Positions 3,229 to 28,514 of a stretch of DNA of 64,000 nucleotides are shown piece by piece. Position 1 is the first letter of the stretch, and each line of letters begins with the position of its first letter. The notes beneath the pieces were generated by a model. The model had not been told where the DNA came from. It searched no databases and saw only the letters and a list, made by a program, of their open reading frames with translations. A program made the translations under genes and the position numbers. This DNA comes from an uncultured Opitutales bacterium (GTDB taxonomy: Bacteria; Verrucomicrobiota; Verrucomicrobiia; Opitutales; Intestinicryptomonadaceae): NCBI GenBank assembly GCA_944389885.1, contig CALXNZ010000003.1, forward strand, positions 62,001 through 126,000, in the 5' to 3' direction.

Positions 3229-5465
3229 ACGGCTCCGGAAAAGTAGTGGAAGTCGCGCTTTTTCGCGGAATTGAGAGAGAGCTTTCGTATTTTGTTCCGC
3301 CGCGGTTGGCGAATAAAGTCGGAATCGGCTCTCTCGTTTCGGTTCCCTTGCGGGGGGCGAGCAGTCCGGCCATTGTCGTAAAAGAGTTCTCCCAGGGCGA
3401 GTTTGTGGGGGACGGCAAGTTTAAGCTTAGATCGATTTATTCGCTCGTTCAAGATGAGCGCGTTTTCGGCAAGGATTTGATTGAGGTGGCGTATTGGATG
3501 CGCGATTATTACGGCTGCAGCCTTCAAACTATATTCGAGGCCATGATTCCCGCCGCCGTGCGGGCGGGGAAAAGCGCCCTTGAGGCCAAAGAAATTATTT
3601 TGGCAAGGCGCCCATCGCGCGACGAATTGTCTAAAATGCAGGCTAAGGCGCCCAGGCAGTTTAAAATACTCAAATTTATGGAGGGTTTTGGGGCTCCAAT
3701 TTTAAAGACCGCCCTTCTTAAATCTTGCGATGTATCTTCGCAGGCAGTGGACGCGCTCGTCAAGAAAGGTATGCTTGTCCAGCGCGACAAAGAAATAGGC
3801 CGCAAAGCTTATGACGACGAGCTCTCAAAATCAGACTGCGAGGTTGCCGTTGAGCACTCGTTAAATTCCGAGCAAGAGGAAACCCTTGAGTCGATATGCG
3901 GAGATATTGATTCTTCCGAATTCAAAACGCGCCTATTGTACGGGGTGACCGGTTCCGGCAAAACGGAGGTGTATATAAGGGCGATGCGGAAGGTATTGTC
4001 GGAGGGAGGCTCGTGCATTTATTTGGTTCCTGAAATATCCTTGACTCCGCAGACTGTAGGGCGCCTTAGAAGCCGCCTGGGAATCGGCTCCAACCTTGTG
4101 GTTTGGCACAGTAATCTTACCGACGGCCAGCGCCTTGACGCGTGGAGAGAATTGGCGTCCGGAAAATCAAAAGTAGTGGTGGGAGCCCGCAGTTGCATTT
4201 TCGCTCCCATGGATTCGCTGCGCCTGATAATAGTTGATGAGGAGCACGATTCCGCCTATAAGCAGGATAAAAATCCGCGTTATAATGCCAGGGATATTGC
4301 GGTATTGAGGGCAAAATTCTGCAAGTGCGCCTGTGTTCTTGGTTCGGCCACTCCGTCTTTGGAGACATTGTACAATGCAAAAAACGGCAAGTATGGAATG
4401 TCCCGCATAAAGTCGCGCGTTGACGGGCGCAAGATGCCATTGGTCTTTATACTCGACATGAAGCGCGAAAAGAGCGGGGCGGCATTGTCAAATATGTTGG
4501 TGGAGAAAATCGCCGCAAGGCTCGATAGGGGAGAGCAGACAATACTTTTTTTAAATAGGCGGGGATATTCTAAAATATTTGAATGCCCCGATTGCGGTTG
4601 GACTGAAGATTGCCCCCATTGCTCCGTATCTATGACATGGCATAAATCTGAGAACTTGGTTAAATGCCATATATGCGGATATTCCAAGTCCGCGCCCTTT
4701 GTTTGCGCAAAATGCGGTTCCCAGCGGGCCCGTTGGCATGGCGACGGCACCCAGAAAATAGAGGAAATAGTGCGAAAGCTTTTCCCTTCGGCAAGGATTG
4801 GGCGCATGGATAGGGACGCCATGAGACGGCGCGACAATTACCGCCGCATTCTTGGAGATTTTAGGGCGGGGCGCCTTGACATTCTGATAGGAACCCAAAT
4901 GATAGCAAAAGGTCTCGATTTCCCACGGGTCACTCTCGTGGGAATAATAAACGCCGACGTGAGTTTGCACATGCCAGATTTTCGGGCGTCCGAGCGCACA
5001 TATCAACTTATAGTGCAGGTTGCCGGAAGGGCCGGGAGGGGCGACGGCGCGGGAGAAGTAGTGGTGCAGACATTGGTTCCAGAAGCCGATCCGATTCAAT
5101 ATGCGAAATCTGACGATATGGATTCATTTTTAGAGGCGGAAATGGAAGCCCGCAGAGAGTATGGCTATCCTCCATACATGCGTTTGGTCCGCCATCTTTT
5201 CCGTGGGCGCAATCCTGATAGATTGGCGTTCTACACTGAAGAATGGGCTAAACTCGCGGAAAAATATATGGGGGAAATTTGCCAGTTGCGCGGTCCGGCT
5301 CCGGCTCCGCTCGAGAAATCCGAGGATTATTATAGATGGCACATGTGGTATTTTTGCAAGTCGGTAAGGCCGGTTATGGCCGCGGTTGCCAACATGCGCA
5401 GGGAATTTGAATTTCCTCCGGATATCGACGAGATTATAGACGTGGACCCTATGTCTATGATGTGA
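3225..5465 (+). CDS. priA: Primosomal protein N' (replication restart helicase PriA)
   Basis: PriA recognises stalled forks, unwinds DNA 3'-5' and loads the primosome. The 746-residue product shows the N-terminal 3'BD domain (VVEVALFRGI onward), Walker A GVTGSGKTE near residue 240, a DEEH box near 336 (Walker B), and the zinc-binding cysteines between about residues 453 and 500 (CPDC, CPHC, CHIC and CAKC pairs). Helicase motifs V-VI are visible as GTQMIAKGLDFPRVTLV and QVAGRAGRGDG. The start is GTG at 3225 inside a GTGA overlap with the upstream gene; no in-frame ATG precedes the conserved N-terminus. Length and domain order are normal. Confidence 0.95.
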   Translation: MNGSGKVVEVALFRGIERELSYFVPPRLANKVGIGSLVSVPLRGASSPAIVVKEFSQGEFVGDGKFKLRSIYSLVQDERVFGKDLIEVAYWMRDYYGCSLQTIFEAMIPAAVRAGKSALEAKEIILARRPSRDELSKMQAKAPRQFKILKFMEGFGAPILKTALLKSCDVSSQAVDALVKKGMLVQRDKEIGRKAYDDELSKSDCEVAVEHSLNSEQEETLESICGDIDSSEFKTRLLYGVTGSGKTEVYIRAMRKVLSEGGSCIYLVPEISLTPQTVGRLRSRLGIGSNLVVWHSNLTDGQRLDAWRELASGKSKVVVGARSCIFAPMDSLRLIIVDEEHDSAYKQDKNPRYNARDIAVLRAKFCKCACVLGSATPSLETLYNAKNGKYGMSRIKSRVDGRKMPLVFILDMKREKSGAALSNMLVEKIAARLDRGEQTILFLNRRGYSKIFECPDCGWTEDCPHCSVSMTWHKSENLVKCHICGYSKSAPFVCAKCGSQRARWHGDGTQKIEEIVRKLFPSARIGRMDRDAMRRRDNYRRILGDFRAGRLDILIGTQMIAKGLDFPRVTLVGIINADVSLHMPDFRASERTYQLIVQVAGRAGRGDGAGEVVVQTLVPEADPIQYAKSDDMDSFLEAEMEARREYGYPPYMRLVRHLFRGRNPDRLAFYTEEWAKLAEKYMGEICQLRGPAPAPLEKSEDYYRWHMWYFCKSVRPVMAAVANMRREFEFPPDIDEIIDVDPMSMM

Positions 5466-21322: not shown

Positions 21323-22102
21323 ATGTCCGAAGATAGAATATTTAAGGGGAAGCGCATATTTCTCACCCGCGAGAATAATTCTGTATTATCCGAAAGGCTG
21401 TCGGGATTAGGGGCCGATGTTGTGGAAATGCCCCTAATACATGTGGCTTTTGAATCGGATGCCGCGGATTTGGCCGATATACTTGAGGAAACCGGCCATT
21501 ACGATTGGATAACATTCTCCAGCGTAAACGGCGTGCGGGGATTTTTTAAAGAGTTCTTTAAAGTGTTTGAAGACGTAAGGTGCATAGGATTTGCCAGAAT
21601 AGCCTGCGTCGGGGAAACGACCGCTCGTGAAGTCCGCAAATATTATCTGAATCCCGCGGTTGTTCCGCAAGAGTTCAACGCCGAAGCTATGGTAAAGGCC
21701 ATGTCGGAATACGAGACGCTCGACAACCTGCGCATATTGTGCGTGCGCGGAAACTTGAGCTCGGGCGACGCCCTCCAAAAACTTGAGAGGGAACACGGCG
21801 CCATAGTCGATGAATTAAAAGTATACAATGTTTCCCTCAACGAGATTCCAGCTTCGCTGCCCGCCGCCAAAACCTTCCGCGATAAAGGCGCCGATGCGAT
21901 AGTATTTTGTAGCCCTTCCGCGGTAGAAGCTTTTACAAAAAGCGCGAAAAATTTGCAGCTGTCGCCTTCGGCCAAAGTTCCGAAAATCGTAGCCATAGGT
22001 TCGACTACCTCCGAAGCCCTTGCAAAGTTCGGCATGAGAGCCTCTGCGGTGGCGGAGTGCGCCGACATTGAATCCGCCTTGAGAAAAGCGTTAGGTGAAT
22101 AA
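21323..22102 (+). CDS. hemD: Uroporphyrinogen-III synthase
   Basis: HemD closes the linear tetrapyrrole hydroxymethylbilane with inversion of ring D. The family is poorly conserved, but the 259-residue product has its typical layout: GKRIFLTRENNSVLSERLSG at the N-terminus, YDWITFSSVNGVRGF (the S-x-N-G motif), FARIACVGETTAREV, ADAIVFCSPSAVEAF and VPKIVAIGSTTSEALAKFG. A GAGGA Shine-Dalgarno lies 6 bases before the ATG. It overlaps mnmA by eight bases. hemW in this window serves the same pathway, but other hem genes are not present. Confidence 0.88.
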   Translation: MSEDRIFKGKRIFLTRENNSVLSERLSGLGADVVEMPLIHVAFESDAADLADILEETGHYDWITFSSVNGVRGFFKEFFKVFEDVRCIGFARIACVGETTAREVRKYYLNPAVVPQEFNAEAMVKAMSEYETLDNLRILCVRGNLSSGDALQKLEREHGAIVDELKVYNVSLNEIPASLPAAKTFRDKGADAIVFCSPSAVEAFTKSAKNLQLSPSAKVPKIVAIGSTTSEALAKFGMRASAVAECADIESALRKALGE

Positions 22103-23192
22103 GTCAAAAATATTGGTGGCTCTGTCCGGAGGCGTTGATAGCGCCGTTTCCATGGCCCTTCTCAAAGGTGAGGGGTACAGCGTATCCGCCGCGTATATGA
22201 AAACGTGGATGAACGAAGAGGGTATCGACGTGTTCGGAGATTGTCCGTGGCATCAGGATATAGAAGACGCCCGCGCCTGCTCGGAAAAACTTGGCGTAGA
22301 TTTTACGGTAGTCGATTTTATTAAAGAATATCGGGAACAGGTAGTAGAATATTTAATAGGGGAGTATAGGGCCGGGCGCACTCCGAATCCGGATATTATG
22401 TGCAATAGGCGCATGAAGTTTGGGAAGTTTCTCGACTACGCGCTTTCGAGGGGATTTGACGCGGTGGCCACTGGCCATTATTGCTCGTCGCGCTTAAATG
22501 GCGACGGTTCTAAAGATCTTCTAATGGGAGCGGATCCGAGCAAGGACCAATCCTACTTTCTTGCGATGATTACTCAGGAGCAGCTTCAGAGGGCGGTGTT
22601 TCCGATAGGAGGAATACCCAAGCCCCGCGTCAGGGAAATCGCCAGGCTTTACGGCCTGCCAAATGCGGATAAAAAAGACAGCCAGGGCATATGTTTCCTG
22701 GGCAAAATTCGGATTCAAGACTTTTTGAGGTATTACATTCCCGAAAACGAGGGCGAAATAGTAAATGCAGCAGGAAAAATTTTAGGCCGCCATAAAGGAT
22801 TGCACAATTATACAATAGGCCAGCGCAAAGGGATAGGCGTTCCGTCCAATACCGACAGAAAAAGCTATGTAGTAATAGCAAAAGATTTTGAGGGCAACAG
22901 GTTGATTGTGGATTTCGACGGGCCGAATAATCCTATGCTTTATACGAACACTGCGCTTGTTCACGACATCAACTGGATAAATAAGCCCGTGAGAGAGACG
23001 CGCGAGCTTGAATGCAAGGTGCGCTATCGGGACGATACCGTAAAAATGCGGTTTATACCCATAGGTGAATCAAAGGCCCAAGTAGAATTTGAACAACCTC
23101 AGCGGGCAATAGCCTCCGGGCAGATATTGGCGATTTACGAAGGCGACGTTCTCTTGGGCGGGGCGGTTTTTGATGATTTACCGCGCCATTAA
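22095..23192 (+). CDS. mnmA: tRNA-specific 2-thiouridylase MnmA
   Basis: MnmA adenylates and thiolates U34 of tRNA-Lys, -Glu and -Gln. The 365-residue product has the PP-loop SGGVDS at residues 11-16, the catalytic pair C103 (in IMCNRRMKFG) and C200 (DSQGICFLG), and the C-terminal beta-barrel region. Initiation must be at the GTG (22095) because the PP-loop is only ten residues in and no ATG precedes it. It overlaps the end of hemD by eight bases and ends two bases short of the converging regulator gene. Confidence 0.95.
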   Translation: MNKSKILVALSGGVDSAVSMALLKGEGYSVSAAYMKTWMNEEGIDVFGDCPWHQDIEDARACSEKLGVDFTVVDFIKEYREQVVEYLIGEYRAGRTPNPDIMCNRRMKFGKFLDYALSRGFDAVATGHYCSSRLNGDGSKDLLMGADPSKDQSYFLAMITQEQLQRAVFPIGGIPKPRVREIARLYGLPNADKKDSQGICFLGKIRIQDFLRYYIPENEGEIVNAAGKILGRHKGLHNYTIGQRKGIGVPSNTDRKSYVVIAKDFEGNRLIVDFDGPNNPMLYTNTALVHDINWINKPVRETRELECKVRYRDDTVKMRFIPIGESKAQVEFEQPQRAIASGQILAIYEGDVLLGGAVFDDLPRH

Positions 23193-23194
23193 CA

Positions 23195-24772
23195 TCATCG
23201 CGGCTTAAACCAAGATGTTGAAATGGAATACTTGGCGATCTTGTAGTTTATAATGCGTTCGCTAATGTTAAGTTTTCTCGCCGCGGCAGCGGCATTGCCG
23301 CGGTTGGCTTTTAACGCTTCCGTTATAAGTTCCCTCTCAAAGGACTGTATCATTGATGTGAAGTCTAAATCCTCTCCGTACGGGAACTTGCGGTGGGCCC
23401 CGTATCCGGCGGCCCGCACGGGCGCAGATAGATTATATCCGGATATGGCGGAATCGTTCGACGACACTACCGCATGCTCTATGCAATTTTCCAGCTCCCG
23501 TACATTTCCCGGCCATGAGTAAACTGTCAGCATATTTATGGCCGGTGTGGATATGCGCTTTATTCTCTTTCCATATATGGCGTTGAATTTTTCGAGGAAG
23601 AATTCCGATAGCAAGAGAATGTCGCTCCTTCTGTCTTTGAGCGAAGGCATATGTATGGTGTTGGGAGTTATTCTCCGGTAGAAGTCGGCATTGAAAAGCT
23701 TTTTTTCCAGCAGCCTCTCTATGTCGTCGCACGAGGCGAATATTATGCGGGCCTTGGGCTTTATTTCATCTTTTCCGCCAAGTCTGCGGAAAGTTCCGGT
23801 CTTTAGAAATGAGGCTATTAGAGCCTGGGCCGGAAGTGAAATTTCGCTTACCTCGTCGAGAAATACCGTTCCTCCGCCCGCGGTTTCCAAGAGGCCCTGG
23901 CGCGTATTGTGGGCGTGGGCGAGGGCGTTTTTTTCGTATCCGAATATCTCGGCTATTATGGCAAAGTCGGGCAGGGCGGCGCAGTTGACCACAGAGAACG
24001 ATTCTCCAAATCTGCGATCGGCAGCGCATATCGCGCGGGCCGCAAGCTCCTTGCCCGTTCCCGAATTTCCGCGTATGAATACGCACCCCTTACGCGTCGA
24101 TGCCTCCGCTATCGCCGCATAAACTTTTTGCATGGCCCCGCAATTTCCTATCATATTTTTGGGGCGCAAAAGCCCGGTGCTCAATTCAAGTTTGAGCTTG
24201 CGGTTTTCGTCTATCAGTTTATCGCGCTCCTCCTGCCTCAGATATAGCGAAGATATCGCGTCGGCAAGCATATTAGAGACTGTTTCAAGCAACTCGGCGA
24301 GCCTTTCGAGGGCGTTCTTTGAATGGGATTTAACGTCTATGCTCAAGGTGCCTATTATTTGCTCCATATAGGTTATCGGAACGCATATAAAAGAGGTTCC
24401 CTTCAAACCTTTGGCGCGGGCCCGCGTACGGTTTAGAAAATTCGGATTTTTTGAAATATCGGGTATGATTATGGTTTTTCCGTTTGCGGCTACAGCTCCG
24501 GTTATTCCCTCTCCGACTTTGTAAACGCCGCGCTTAGCGGCTTCGTCGCTCATACCGTAAAAAGCTTCTATGAATAGGTAATCTCCCTGCCTAAGAGTTA
24601 TTGCCCCGCATAGTATTTCCAAATGTTCGTGGAGAATTTCGAGCGTTTCCGACATTAATTGAGCGGAACTTCGGCGCCTTACAACTGCGCGGCTGACCTT
24701 CAACAAAACCGCCATTTCAAGTTCTTCAAAGAAGGAACTCTTTTGTGTGGAGGGTTTGTTTGCAGCTGCCAT
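23195..24772 (-). CDS. NifA-like GAF/AAA+/Fis regulator with degenerate sigma54-contact motif
   Basis: The 525-residue product has the architecture of NifA-type enhancer-binding proteins: GAF domain (about 25-180, with GEGITGAVAANGKTIIIPDI), AAA+ domain (about 205-435) and a Fis-type helix-turn-helix (about 480-515, RGNAAAAARKLNISERII). Walker A GNSGTGKE (235-242) and Walker B LDE (305-307) are intact. The sigma54-contacting GAFTGA loop reads NALAHA (282-287), and the first arginine finger (canonical FREDLYYR) is Asn361, giving FNADFYRR with only R367 kept. It may therefore not activate sigma54 promoters and could be a repressor or use another partner. It lies 10 bases after purL. What the GAF domain senses is unknown. 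Confidence 0.9.
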   Translation of the reverse strand: MAAANKPSTQKSSFFEELEMAVLLKVSRAVVRRRSSAQLMSETLEILHEHLEILCGAITLRQGDYLFIEAFYGMSDEAAKRGVYKVGEGITGAVAANGKTIIIPDISKNPNFLNRTRARAKGLKGTSFICVPITYMEQIIGTLSIDVKSHSKNALERLAELLETVSNMLADAISSLYLRQEERDKLIDENRKLKLELSTGLLRPKNMIGNCGAMQKVYAAIAEASTRKGCVFIRGNSGTGKELAARAICAADRRFGESFSVVNCAALPDFAIIAEIFGYEKNALAHAHNTRQGLLETAGGGTVFLDEVSEISLPAQALIASFLKTGTFRRLGGKDEIKPKARIIFASCDDIERLLEKKLFNADFYRRITPNTIHMPSLKDRRSDILLLSEFFLEKFNAIYGKRIKRISTPAINMLTVYSWPGNVRELENCIEHAVVSSNDSAISGYNLSAPVRAAGYGAHRKFPYGEDLDFTSMIQSFERELITEALKANRGNAAAAARKLNISERIINYKIAKYSISTSWFKPR

Positions 24773-24782
24773 TGCGCTTGTC

Positions 24783-27700
24783 CTATTTGAAATAGGAGAC
24801 CCCCGACGCGAAAATAGGCTGTATTTTCTCGCCTGGAATGTTGACTCCTATATTTGTCCCGCAGCGTTCAGTATGCCCCATTTTCCCGAATACGAGGCCG
24901 TCGGGACTGCATATGCCTTCTACGGCGCACATCGAACCATTTGGATTGTACGGCATTTCTTGCGTCGGCTCTCCGTTCGGTGAAACATACTGGGTGGCTA
25001 TTTGTCCGTTGTCGGCAAGGGATTTTATCAAGCTTTCGGGCGCGATAAACTTGCCTTCCCCATGCGACACGGGTATTGTATAGACTTCGCCAACCGAACA
25101 TTGTGAAAGCCACGGCGAGAGCGTACTGGATATTCGCGTTTGGACGTAGCAGCTGACGTGCCTGCCTATATTGTTGTATGTTAGTGTTGGGCTGTCTTCG
25201 GATAATTCGCGTATCTCCCCGAACGGCACGAGGCCGAGTTTTATCAGGGCTTGAAATCCGTTGCATATTCCCAGTACGAGACCTTTTCTATCTTTTACCA
25301 GTCCCATTACAGCGTCCGATAGCGCCGCGTTGCGAAATACTGCGGCTATGAATTTTCCGGAGCCTGCGGGTTCGTCTCCGGCGCTGAATCCTCCGGGTAT
25401 CATTAACATCTGCGATGAGCCTATGCGTTTTCTCATCTCTTCTATCGATTCCGCGACATCGGAGTCGCTCCTATTTCTAAATACAAATATATCGGTTTCA
25501 GCTCCAGCTTTTTCAAAGGCTCTTGCGGTATCGTATTCGCAGTTTGTTCCGGGGAATACGGGAATGAAGACCTTTGGCTTTGCATATTTGTTCGGAGACA
25601 AGAATGGAATCTTTGGCGAAAATGCAGGTTTGATGGCTTCCAAACTTTGCGGCATTTTCGCGGTCTTTGTAGGATAAACACTCTCAAGGGGGGCTTCCCA
25701 CGCGGAAATTAGTTCGCAAATTGGAATTGACGTTTCTCCGACTCTTATTTCCGGAGAGGCTATTGTATGGCCTATTTTTTCGGCCTCCAATTCCGACGGA
25801 TTCACATTTTCGGCCAATTCTACAACTATCGCTCCGTAGTCCAAGGCGAATGGGTTTGGAAATTCTTTTGTGAATTCAAAGCCTATGCCGTTGCCGAATG
25901 TCATTTTTGATATTGCTTCCGCCAAGCCCCCGAATCTTAGGCTGTGGGCGGCGAGGACTTTTTTCTCTAAAATCGCCTTGTTCAAAGCCGCATATTTTCT
26001 CTTGAGCTCATCCCAATCGGGAATGAAGTTTTCGTCTTTTGCGATTCTTATCAAGGCGACTTCAGAGCTTGGGCGTTTGAATTCGGGGGAAATGACGTTG
26101 CGGACATCGCATGTGGTTATCGCGAAACTTACGAGAGTCGGAGGAACGTCTATATCGTTAAACGATCCAGACATTGAGTCCTTGCCGCCTATGGCTGGGC
26201 ACCCGAGAGCCATTTGCGCGTCGAGGGCCCCGAGCAGGGCGGCAAGCGGTTTTCCCCAACGCTTTGGATTCTTGCGCAGCTTTTCAAAATATTCTTGAAA
26301 TGTAAACCTGATTTTTGAAATGTCGCCGCCTGAAGCGGCTATTTTGGCGACCGATTCAAGCACGGCATATACGGCGCCGTGGTACGGGCTCCATGACGAT
26401 ATATTCGGATTGAATCCGAACGCGAAAATTGTGCCGAGATTTGTGTCTCCTCTCAGGAGGGGTATTTTTGCGCACATCGATTCCGGCTGAGTGGAGAGAT
26501 TTTTTCCGCCGAACGGATGGGTCACCGATGCCGCCCCTATGGACGAATCAAATCTTTCGACCAATCCTCTTTGTGAACAGCAGTTGAGGTCTTGCAGGGT
26601 TTTAATCCACTCATTTTTGTCGGAAGGATTCTTTGATGTGGAATCGAAGGGTGTGGACTTGCTCGGGGCCGATATTTCGGCTCTTGCGGAGGCCGTTGTG
26701 CCATTGGTGTCGAGGAAGGCCCTGCTCAGGTTTACGATTGGCTTGCCGCGCCACTTCATTACGAGCCTTCCGCTGTCCGTGACAACCGCCACCGGCGTAC
26801 ATTCGAGATTTTCTTCGTCGGCGAGTTTTGTGAATTTCTCCGCGTCGAGCGGCGACACTACAACGGCCATTCTCTCTTGGGATTCCGATATTGCAAGTTC
26901 TGTGCCGTCGAGGCCGTCGTATTTCTTGGGGACGGCGTCGAGATTTATTTCCAGGGAGGGGGCGAGTTCACCTATGGCCACACTTACGCCGCCTGCGCCG
27001 AAGTCGTTGCATCTTTTTATGAGCTTGCTGGCTTCGGGATTGCGAAACAAGCGTTGAAGTTTGCGCTCCATAGGGGCGTCGCCCTTCTGGACTTCGGCGG
27101 AGTTCTCGAGGGCTTTTTCCGTATGGTCTTTAGAAGATCCCGTTGCCCCGCCTATGCCGTCCCTTCCGGTTCTTCCGCCCAGAAGGAGAATCACATCTCC
27201 TTTTTCCGGGCGCATCCTCTTTACCCATGACTTGGGTGCGGCGGCTACGACAGCCCCTATTTCCATGCGCTTTGCAAGGTATCCTGTGTGGTATATTTCG
27301 CACACCTGTCCCGTCGCCAAACCTATTTGATTTCCATAGCTGCTATATCCGTTTGCGGCTTCGGTGACTATCTTTTTTTGGGGCAGTTTTCCCTTTAAAG
27401 TTTCTTCAAACGGCTTGCGGGGATCGGCCGCTCCCGTGACGCGCATTGCCTGGTAGACATAGCTCCTGCCGGAGAGCGGATCTCGAATCGCCCCGCCCAG
27501 GCATGTGGCGGCTCCTCCAAATGGCTCGATTTCGGTTGGGTGGTTATGCGTCTCGTTTTTAAACATGACCAGCCATTTTTCTGAATGCCCGTCGATTTCA
27601 GCGTCCACTTCTATGCTGGCGGCATTTATTTCCTCGCTCTCTTCTATGTCCTGAAGCTTTTCGGCATTCTTAAGGGCCCTCATTCCTATTAGAGCCAAAT

Positions 27701-28514
27701 CCATAAGGCTTTCTGGTTTGCCGCGTTCGGCGAGCTTTAGCTCTCCGCGCAGCCTGCGGTATTCGGCGAGAGAAATCTTTGCCGGTGTATTAAATTCGGC
27801 GTCCTCTATCTTTATGTCCTCAAGTTTGGTCAGAAAAGTGGTATGGCGGCAGTGGTCGCTCCAGTAAGTGTCGAGAACTCTTATCTCGGTTATGCTTGGG
27901 TCGCGTTTCTCGTCTTTTGCGAAATAGTCGCGGCAAAATGCGAGATCCTCGACCGACATCGCCAGCGACATCTTTTTATGGAGGGCGGCAATTTGCGCTT
28001 CGTCCATATTTGCGAAACCGTCTATTGTTTGAATATCGGCGGGCACTTTTGTCTTCCTCTCGAGCGTCTGAGGCTTGTCGAGAGACGCCTCGCGGCTGTC
28101 AACCGCATTTATGAGGTATTTTTTTATTTGTTCTATCTCGTCTTGCGAGAGATTCCCCTTTAAAACGTATATTTTTGCGCAGGCAACTTTGGGCCTCTTT
28201 AAAGCCGCTATTTGAATGCATTGTTCCGCTGAATCGGCCCGCTGGTCGAATTGTCCCGGAAGGTATTCCACGCCGAACACCGTTTCGTCATCCGACAGCG
28301 GAAAAGTTTCCTCGTACAGATTTTCAACCGGGGCTTCCCTAAATATTAGGTTCTTTATCTTATTGTAGACTTCTGAATCCAGCCCCTCTGCGTCGTAGCG
28401 CTGAAGTATTCTAAGGCCGCCTATCGACTTTATATTTAGCGAAGCCTTAATATCGTTTAAAAGGGCTTTTGCCGCGTGTCCGTTTTTATCCTCTACAAAT
28501 ACTCTGCGAATCAT
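24783..28514 (-). CDS. purL: Phosphoribosylformylglycinamidine synthase, large fused form
   Basis: PurL converts FGAR, ATP and glutamine to FGAM in purine synthesis. This is the single-chain form (1243 residues) joining the synthetase halves to a C-terminal class I glutaminase, unlike the PurS-PurQ-PurL form. Visible features are YWSDHCRHTTF, GIGGATGSSKD, FGAGGVSVAIGE, IGGKDSMSGSF, and the glutaminase with nucleophile Cys in LVLGICNGFQALIKLG and the catalytic His in VSHGEGKF. A rather divergent oxyanion segment GGFSAGDEPAGSGKF replaces the usual GGFSYGDY-type motif. It stands alone, followed by the degenerate regulator. Its start lies 35 bases from a TTGCGA box (weak). Confidence 0.95.
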   Translation of the reverse strand: MIRRVFVEDKNGHAAKALLNDIKASLNIKSIGGLRILQRYDAEGLDSEVYNKIKNLIFREAPVENLYEETFPLSDDETVFGVEYLPGQFDQRADSAEQCIQIAALKRPKVACAKIYVLKGNLSQDEIEQIKKYLINAVDSREASLDKPQTLERKTKVPADIQTIDGFANMDEAQIAALHKKMSLAMSVEDLAFCRDYFAKDEKRDPSITEIRVLDTYWSDHCRHTTFLTKLEDIKIEDAEFNTPAKISLAEYRRLRGELKLAERGKPESLMDLALIGMRALKNAEKLQDIEESEEINAASIEVDAEIDGHSEKWLVMFKNETHNHPTEIEPFGGAATCLGGAIRDPLSGRSYVYQAMRVTGAADPRKPFEETLKGKLPQKKIVTEAANGYSSYGNQIGLATGQVCEIYHTGYLAKRMEIGAVVAAAPKSWVKRMRPEKGDVILLLGGRTGRDGIGGATGSSKDHTEKALENSAEVQKGDAPMERKLQRLFRNPEASKLIKRCNDFGAGGVSVAIGELAPSLEINLDAVPKKYDGLDGTELAISESQERMAVVVSPLDAEKFTKLADEENLECTPVAVVTDSGRLVMKWRGKPIVNLSRAFLDTNGTTASARAEISAPSKSTPFDSTSKNPSDKNEWIKTLQDLNCCSQRGLVERFDSSIGAASVTHPFGGKNLSTQPESMCAKIPLLRGDTNLGTIFAFGFNPNISSWSPYHGAVYAVLESVAKIAASGGDISKIRFTFQEYFEKLRKNPKRWGKPLAALLGALDAQMALGCPAIGGKDSMSGSFNDIDVPPTLVSFAITTCDVRNVISPEFKRPSSEVALIRIAKDENFIPDWDELKRKYAALNKAILEKKVLAAHSLRFGGLAEAISKMTFGNGIGFEFTKEFPNPFALDYGAIVVELAENVNPSELEAEKIGHTIASPEIRVGETSIPICELISAWEAPLESVYPTKTAKMPQSLEAIKPAFSPKIPFLSPNKYAKPKVFIPVFPGTNCEYDTARAFEKAGAETDIFVFRNRSDSDVAESIEEMRKRIGSSQMLMIPGGFSAGDEPAGSGKFIAAVFRNAALSDAVMGLVKDRKGLVLGICNGFQALIKLGLVPFGEIRELSEDSPTLTYNNIGRHVSCYVQTRISSTLSPWLSQCSVGEVYTIPVSHGEGKFIAPESLIKSLADNGQIATQYVSPNGEPTQEMPYNPNGSMCAVEGICSPDGLVFGKMGHTERCGTNIGVNIPGEKIQPIFASGVSYFK

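Follow-up and report, generated by a model that had tools for sequence, protein, structure and literature searches.

Enhancer-binding proteins (bEBPs) that lack the GAFTGA motif and work with sigma70 have been described in several bacteria, among them NtrC of R. capsulatus, VpsR and the NtrC of Caulobacter (PMC10274813) as well as TyrR, DhaR and HupR (PMC3162934). About 110 homologues with such deviations in the motif were found in a survey from 2011 (PMC3162934), and transcription activation is lost in most mutants of the motif (PMC7175178). The regulator described here, termed paralogue A, resembles these proteins: like A, they combine a bEBP AAA+ core with a C-terminal helix-turn-helix (HTH) domain, lack the GAFTGA loop and belong to lineages that descended from sigma54 activators. 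Its N-terminal domain is a GAF domain, compared to the receiver domain of the NtrC and HupR examples. Unlike the known examples, members of the A family also lack one or both arginine fingers, and the genome that encodes A carries two paralogues of it, one canonical and one likewise degenerate. MphX, considered as an earlier case of a degenerate paralogue repressing its activator, was rejected, as it shows at most 15% identity to known regulator families (PMC3063778).

Paralogue A is encoded at positions 23195..24772 on the minus strand of the window (the whole stretch of 64,000 nucleotides that was analysed) and comprises 525 amino acids from an ATG start. Pfam assigns the domain order GAF, Sigma54_activat, AAA_lid_14 and HTH_8, and the Sigma54_activat match covers residues 207-373 with 141 bits. 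All following features lie on the minus strand as well. The GAF domain spans residues 38-174 (24251..24661; Pfam match over 38-173), the AAA+ lid with sensor II residues 376-440 (23453..23647, Pfam) and the Fis-type HTH residues 476-520 (23213..23347). Walker A reads RGNSGTGKE (residues 234-242, 24047..24073) with Lys241, and Walker B reads VFLDEV (residues 303-308, 23849..23866) with Asp306 and Glu307, which together with the Pfam domains bears out the initial annotation of an intact enhancer-binding-protein architecture with intact Walker motifs. Two further statements of that annotation were verified by alignment to NifA and ZraR: NALAHA (residues 282-287, 23912..23929) occupies the GAFTGA position of loop L1, and the first arginine finger is replaced by Asn361 (23690..23692) within the stretch FNADFYRRI that starts at residue 360. 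The position of the second finger is occupied by Arg367 (23672..23674). Thus, A has the Walker A and B motifs of a sigma54-dependent bEBP and lacks the GAFTGA motif and the pair of arginine fingers, and it matches the GAFTGA-less, bEBP-derived regulators, in which an AAA+ core and a Fis-type HTH are maintained by selection.

The protein had also been called NifA-like, which holds as a statement of similarity and fails as a family assignment. A shares the GAF-AAA+-HTH arrangement with NifA of Azotobacter vinelandii (9qq6) and can be aligned to it over residues 15-516, but it lacks the GAFTGA motif and finger 1 and scores 324.7 bits against the NCBIfam NifA equivalog, for which the cut-off is 528.85 bits. 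Moreover, no convincing nifH was found in the genome, where the search for a nitrogenase reductase gene returned two weak partial matches to PF00142, both within one 264-aa frame. An AlphaFold model of A, a monomer that carries no information on rings, reached a mean pLDDT of 87.1 and predicts that the AAA+ fold of bEBPs is kept. The best matches to this model in the PDB were NtrC1 and ZraR. It also matched the crystal structure of the likewise GAFTGA-less VpsR (7v2b, E 1.5e-18); the two proteins share about 30% identity in the aligned portion and are not closely related.

To determine how far the motif loss extends, we compared the A copies of 13 same-genus genomes, including that of the window, and related copies from two sister genera. 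Genome G010 was excluded as a test of loss, since even a RecA query gives no match there. A normal GAFTGA in close homologues would have pointed to an assembly error or to the decay of a single strain, as the initial annotation had stated; the motif is missing from all 13 same-genus copies and from the related copies of both sister genera. Loop L1 varies among the orthologues (e.g. DSFARA, DAFAHA, RSPFGA) and is deleted in two of them (L028 and L029). Hence, it is the absence of GAFTGA that is fixed; the exact string NALAHA, whose fixation had been in question, occurs in the window copy alone. Finger 1 is lost in 13/13 same-genus copies and finger 2 in 11/13, the window copy being one of the two that retain the arginine. 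The Walker A lysine, the Walker B Asp-Glu pair, the switch asparagine and the sensor II arginine are kept in all 13, whereas the sister-genus copies have lost the Walker B glutamate, too. As GAFTGA is missing from all same-genus and sister-genus copies, its loss is old and shared by the family. In another family of the same order, two proteins (L033 and L034) also miss finger 1 and carry an altered GAFTGA motif (GLFAGA and GSFSGA, respectively); this erosion is possibly independent of that in A.

The losses are concentrated in particular regions of the protein. When A orthologues are compared pairwise, mean identities of 36% for L1, 37% for L2 and 40% for the finger region contrast with 63% for GAF, 80% for the lid, 81% for sensor II and 75% for the HTH. 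The corresponding values for the orthologues of the canonical paralogue, termed B, are 87%, 84%, 89%, 71%, 75%, 89% and 72%. Within residues 271-374, positions conserved at 80% or more number 21 of 104 in A versus 85 of 104 in B (p = 1.5e-19). The difference is not clear for GAF, lid and HTH combined (139/248 in A versus 159/248 in B, p = 0.08). Synonymous sites are saturated or strongly diverged (dS of 1.2 or more where estimable), and dN in A amounts to 0.03-0.45, well below dS wherever the latter could be estimated, with values of 0.03-0.17 for lid and HTH. Regional conservation and the excess of dS over dN indicate that the sigma54- and ATP-coupling surfaces of A were lost selectively under continued selection rather than by general decay. 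The fast evolution of the middle of the AAA+ domain could also be expected of a decaying, pseudogene-like paralogue or of an assembly error. This explanation is hardly credible here, as the reading frames are open and free of internal stops in the 13 same-genus genomes and the sister genera, and GAF, lid and HTH are about as conserved as in B. Chance or assembly error is excluded by these intact orthologues, which share about 52-63% identity and conserved GAF, lid and HTH domains.

The genome of the window does encode RpoN (G000:C2:63920-64396, E 1.6e-55), which the initial annotation had proposed to check. Since Walker A and B are intact and the AAA+ fold is predicted to be so, A could in principle still activate sigma54 through an alternative L1 sequence. 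We consider this very improbable: no substitute motif is conserved in L1, which two orthologues have lost altogether, both fingers are gone from most A orthologues, and GAFTGA mutants mostly do not activate (PMC7175178). The initial annotation had claimed that A likely does not remodel sigma54, and the disappearance of L1, L2 and the fingers throughout the family, with constraint maintained elsewhere, lends this good support. Judged from its sequences, A has throughout the bacterial family lost the parts that contact sigma54 and consume ATP and kept those for sensing and DNA binding. Such a sequence would fit each of the roles suggested initially, namely a repressor, a sigma70 regulator or a ligand-controlled DNA-binding protein.

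Four strong Sigma54_activat proteins are encoded in the genome of the window: A, B (L071), a third paralogue C (L073) and an NtrC-type protein with a receiver domain (L090). B has the same domains as A with about 44-50% identity, and all its motifs are canonical. In C, L1 is shortened and finger 1 is kept; all 12 orthologues have another residue in place of the Walker B glutamate, and 10 of the 12 lack finger 2. In a phylogenetic tree, A, C and the degenerate copies of the sister genera form one clade (100/98), which is sister to B. Near C, at 2124-3035 of L073, lies an ORF of 303 amino acids with short N-x-G-type repeats (NTGSGNIGSSNAG...).

Unlike A, B has a complete set of sigma54 and ATPase motifs; it belongs to a gltB-gltD-B arrangement near sigma54 promoters and paired CTACAAAATTGTAG enhancers. 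Its orthologues usually follow gltB-gltD, and divergently from gltB runs a glnK-amtB-glnN operon for P-II, an ammonium transporter and a type III glutamine synthetase. The gap between gltB and glnK contains sigma54 -24/-12 sites in both directions and CTACAAAATTGTAG-type palindromes, of which 11 were counted over eight regions compared to a mean of 0.016 after shuffling; paired copies are 32 bases apart. This promoter anatomy, i.e. sigma54 sites with paired palindromes, suggests that B is probably an activator of nitrogen assimilation and that, in Verrucomicrobiota, the genes from gltB to glnK-amtB-glnN probably form a sigma54 nitrogen regulon. In L092 (G000 contig C24), this arrangement of divergent sigma54 promoters and paired CTACAAAATTGTAG-type palindromes lies at about 4090-4470, and it is conserved in several genomes. 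Searches of genome G009 found neither gltB nor amtB; there, a sigma54 promoter with two palindromic enhancers spaced by 33 bases runs divergently from B (L103, about 630-1130) and precedes a small ORF of ~60 aa, judged by eye. A genome-wide scan with the sigma54 consensus gave 114 matches versus 65 in a reversed control and was too noisy to define a regulon.

The common ancestry of A, B and C and their GAF, lid and Fis domains raise the question of whether A, and likewise C, acts on B as a dominant-negative subunit, in mixed rings or by competition for enhancers, so that sigma54-dependent nitrogen genes would be lowered or tuned. In a mixed ring, finger 1 of C and Walker B of A could complete some ATP sites, and A and B occur together in most same-genus genomes with data, the exceptions being G004 and the fragmented draft G006. 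Yet the finger, L1 and L2 faces that form part of a working ring are eroded in A, and HTH residues 509 (Asn in A, Leu in B) and 515 (Tyr in A, Leu in B and C) show no variation within A and have diverged from B, which suggests that A would bind a different operator. Furthermore, a search of G004 (97% complete) with B as query returned A, C and the NtrC-type gene and did not detect B. As A and C are intact in this genome, without longer branches in the tree, this argues that they do not need B. Neither gltB nor amtB was found in G004; since gltB, gltD, B, glnK, amtB and glnN normally share one locus, the missing B could reflect a single assembly gap. Taken together, we regard an action of A on B as possible, though rather unlikely. 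A more elaborate version, in which a canonical sigma54 nitrogen activator is tuned across the lineage by the motor-dead A and C through mixed rings with complementary half-sites (A contributing an ATP site with few or no fingers, C a finger 1 without the Walker B glutamate), appears doubtful.

The surroundings of A were compared over flanks of 1-2 kb of the orthologous loci. A convergent mnmA-like gene (22095..23192, plus strand) adjoins A in all 13 same-genus copies. Upstream, the stop codon of purL (24783..28514, minus strand) is 10 bases away from the ATG of A, as the initial annotation had reported. The suggested link with purine synthesis was not supported by the comparison, since this neighbourhood is not conserved: of the same-genus loci for which 1-1.5 kb of upstream flank was available, the window alone has purL beside A. 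Co-regulation with purL was rejected as a general feature; 8/12 other A copies are divergent from dnaX (recognised by eye). A perfect palindrome, TCCTATTTGAAATAGGA, was noticed by eye at 24781-24797; it spans the stop codon of purL immediately before A and may be due to chance. A TTGAAA box followed by AT-rich sequence about 17 bases downstream lies upstream of A in nine orthologues, an arrangement that, read by eye, resembles a sigma70-type promoter. The window copy is without this promoter because purL now lies upstream. Enhancers of the B type and ACAA-N2-TTGT sites were not found upstream of A and C, and the matches to sigma54 promoters at both genes were isolated ones inside genes or at the locus edge. 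Inverted repeats were considered as autoregulatory operators of A and C and discarded, since a dyad search gave none common to enough orthologues. No operators or target genes of A were found.

Since the surfaces for sigma54 contact and ATP coupling were lost selectively, we consider it fairly likely that A is, in the manner of TyrR, VpsR or R. capsulatus NtrC, a GAF-controlled, sigma54-independent DNA-binding regulator. Its history would go back to an ancestral GAF-type sigma54 activator that was duplicated before the bacterial family diversified. One copy, B, would have stayed a normal sigma54 activator, probably for nitrogen assimilation, while the A lineage would have lost L1 with GAFTGA, L2 and the arginine fingers and become a ligand-gated regulator independent of sigma54. 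The GAF domain of A may sense a small molecule, and its state, together with ATP that is probably bound without productive hydrolysis, may set the conformation or the oligomer of the protein. The Fis-type HTH could then bind operators of its own and repress or activate sigma70-type promoters. The retention of the Walker B Asp-Glu pair in all same-genus copies suggests that some ATP chemistry may persist, which counts against this otherwise best explanation.

Single GAFTGA-less relatives of sigma54 activators were already known; here, a working copy is accompanied by two degenerate ones that have been retained. Annotation of A as a 'sigma54-dependent regulator' or as 'NifA' is misleading. The presence of A together with the intact paralogue B in many genomes offers a clean natural series, in which a sigma54 AAA+ activator appears to lose its motor and to be kept as a plain regulator. 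In addition, B, gltBD and glnK-amtB-glnN point to a probable nitrogen regulon governed by a GAF-type activator and sigma54 in uncultured Verrucomicrobiota.
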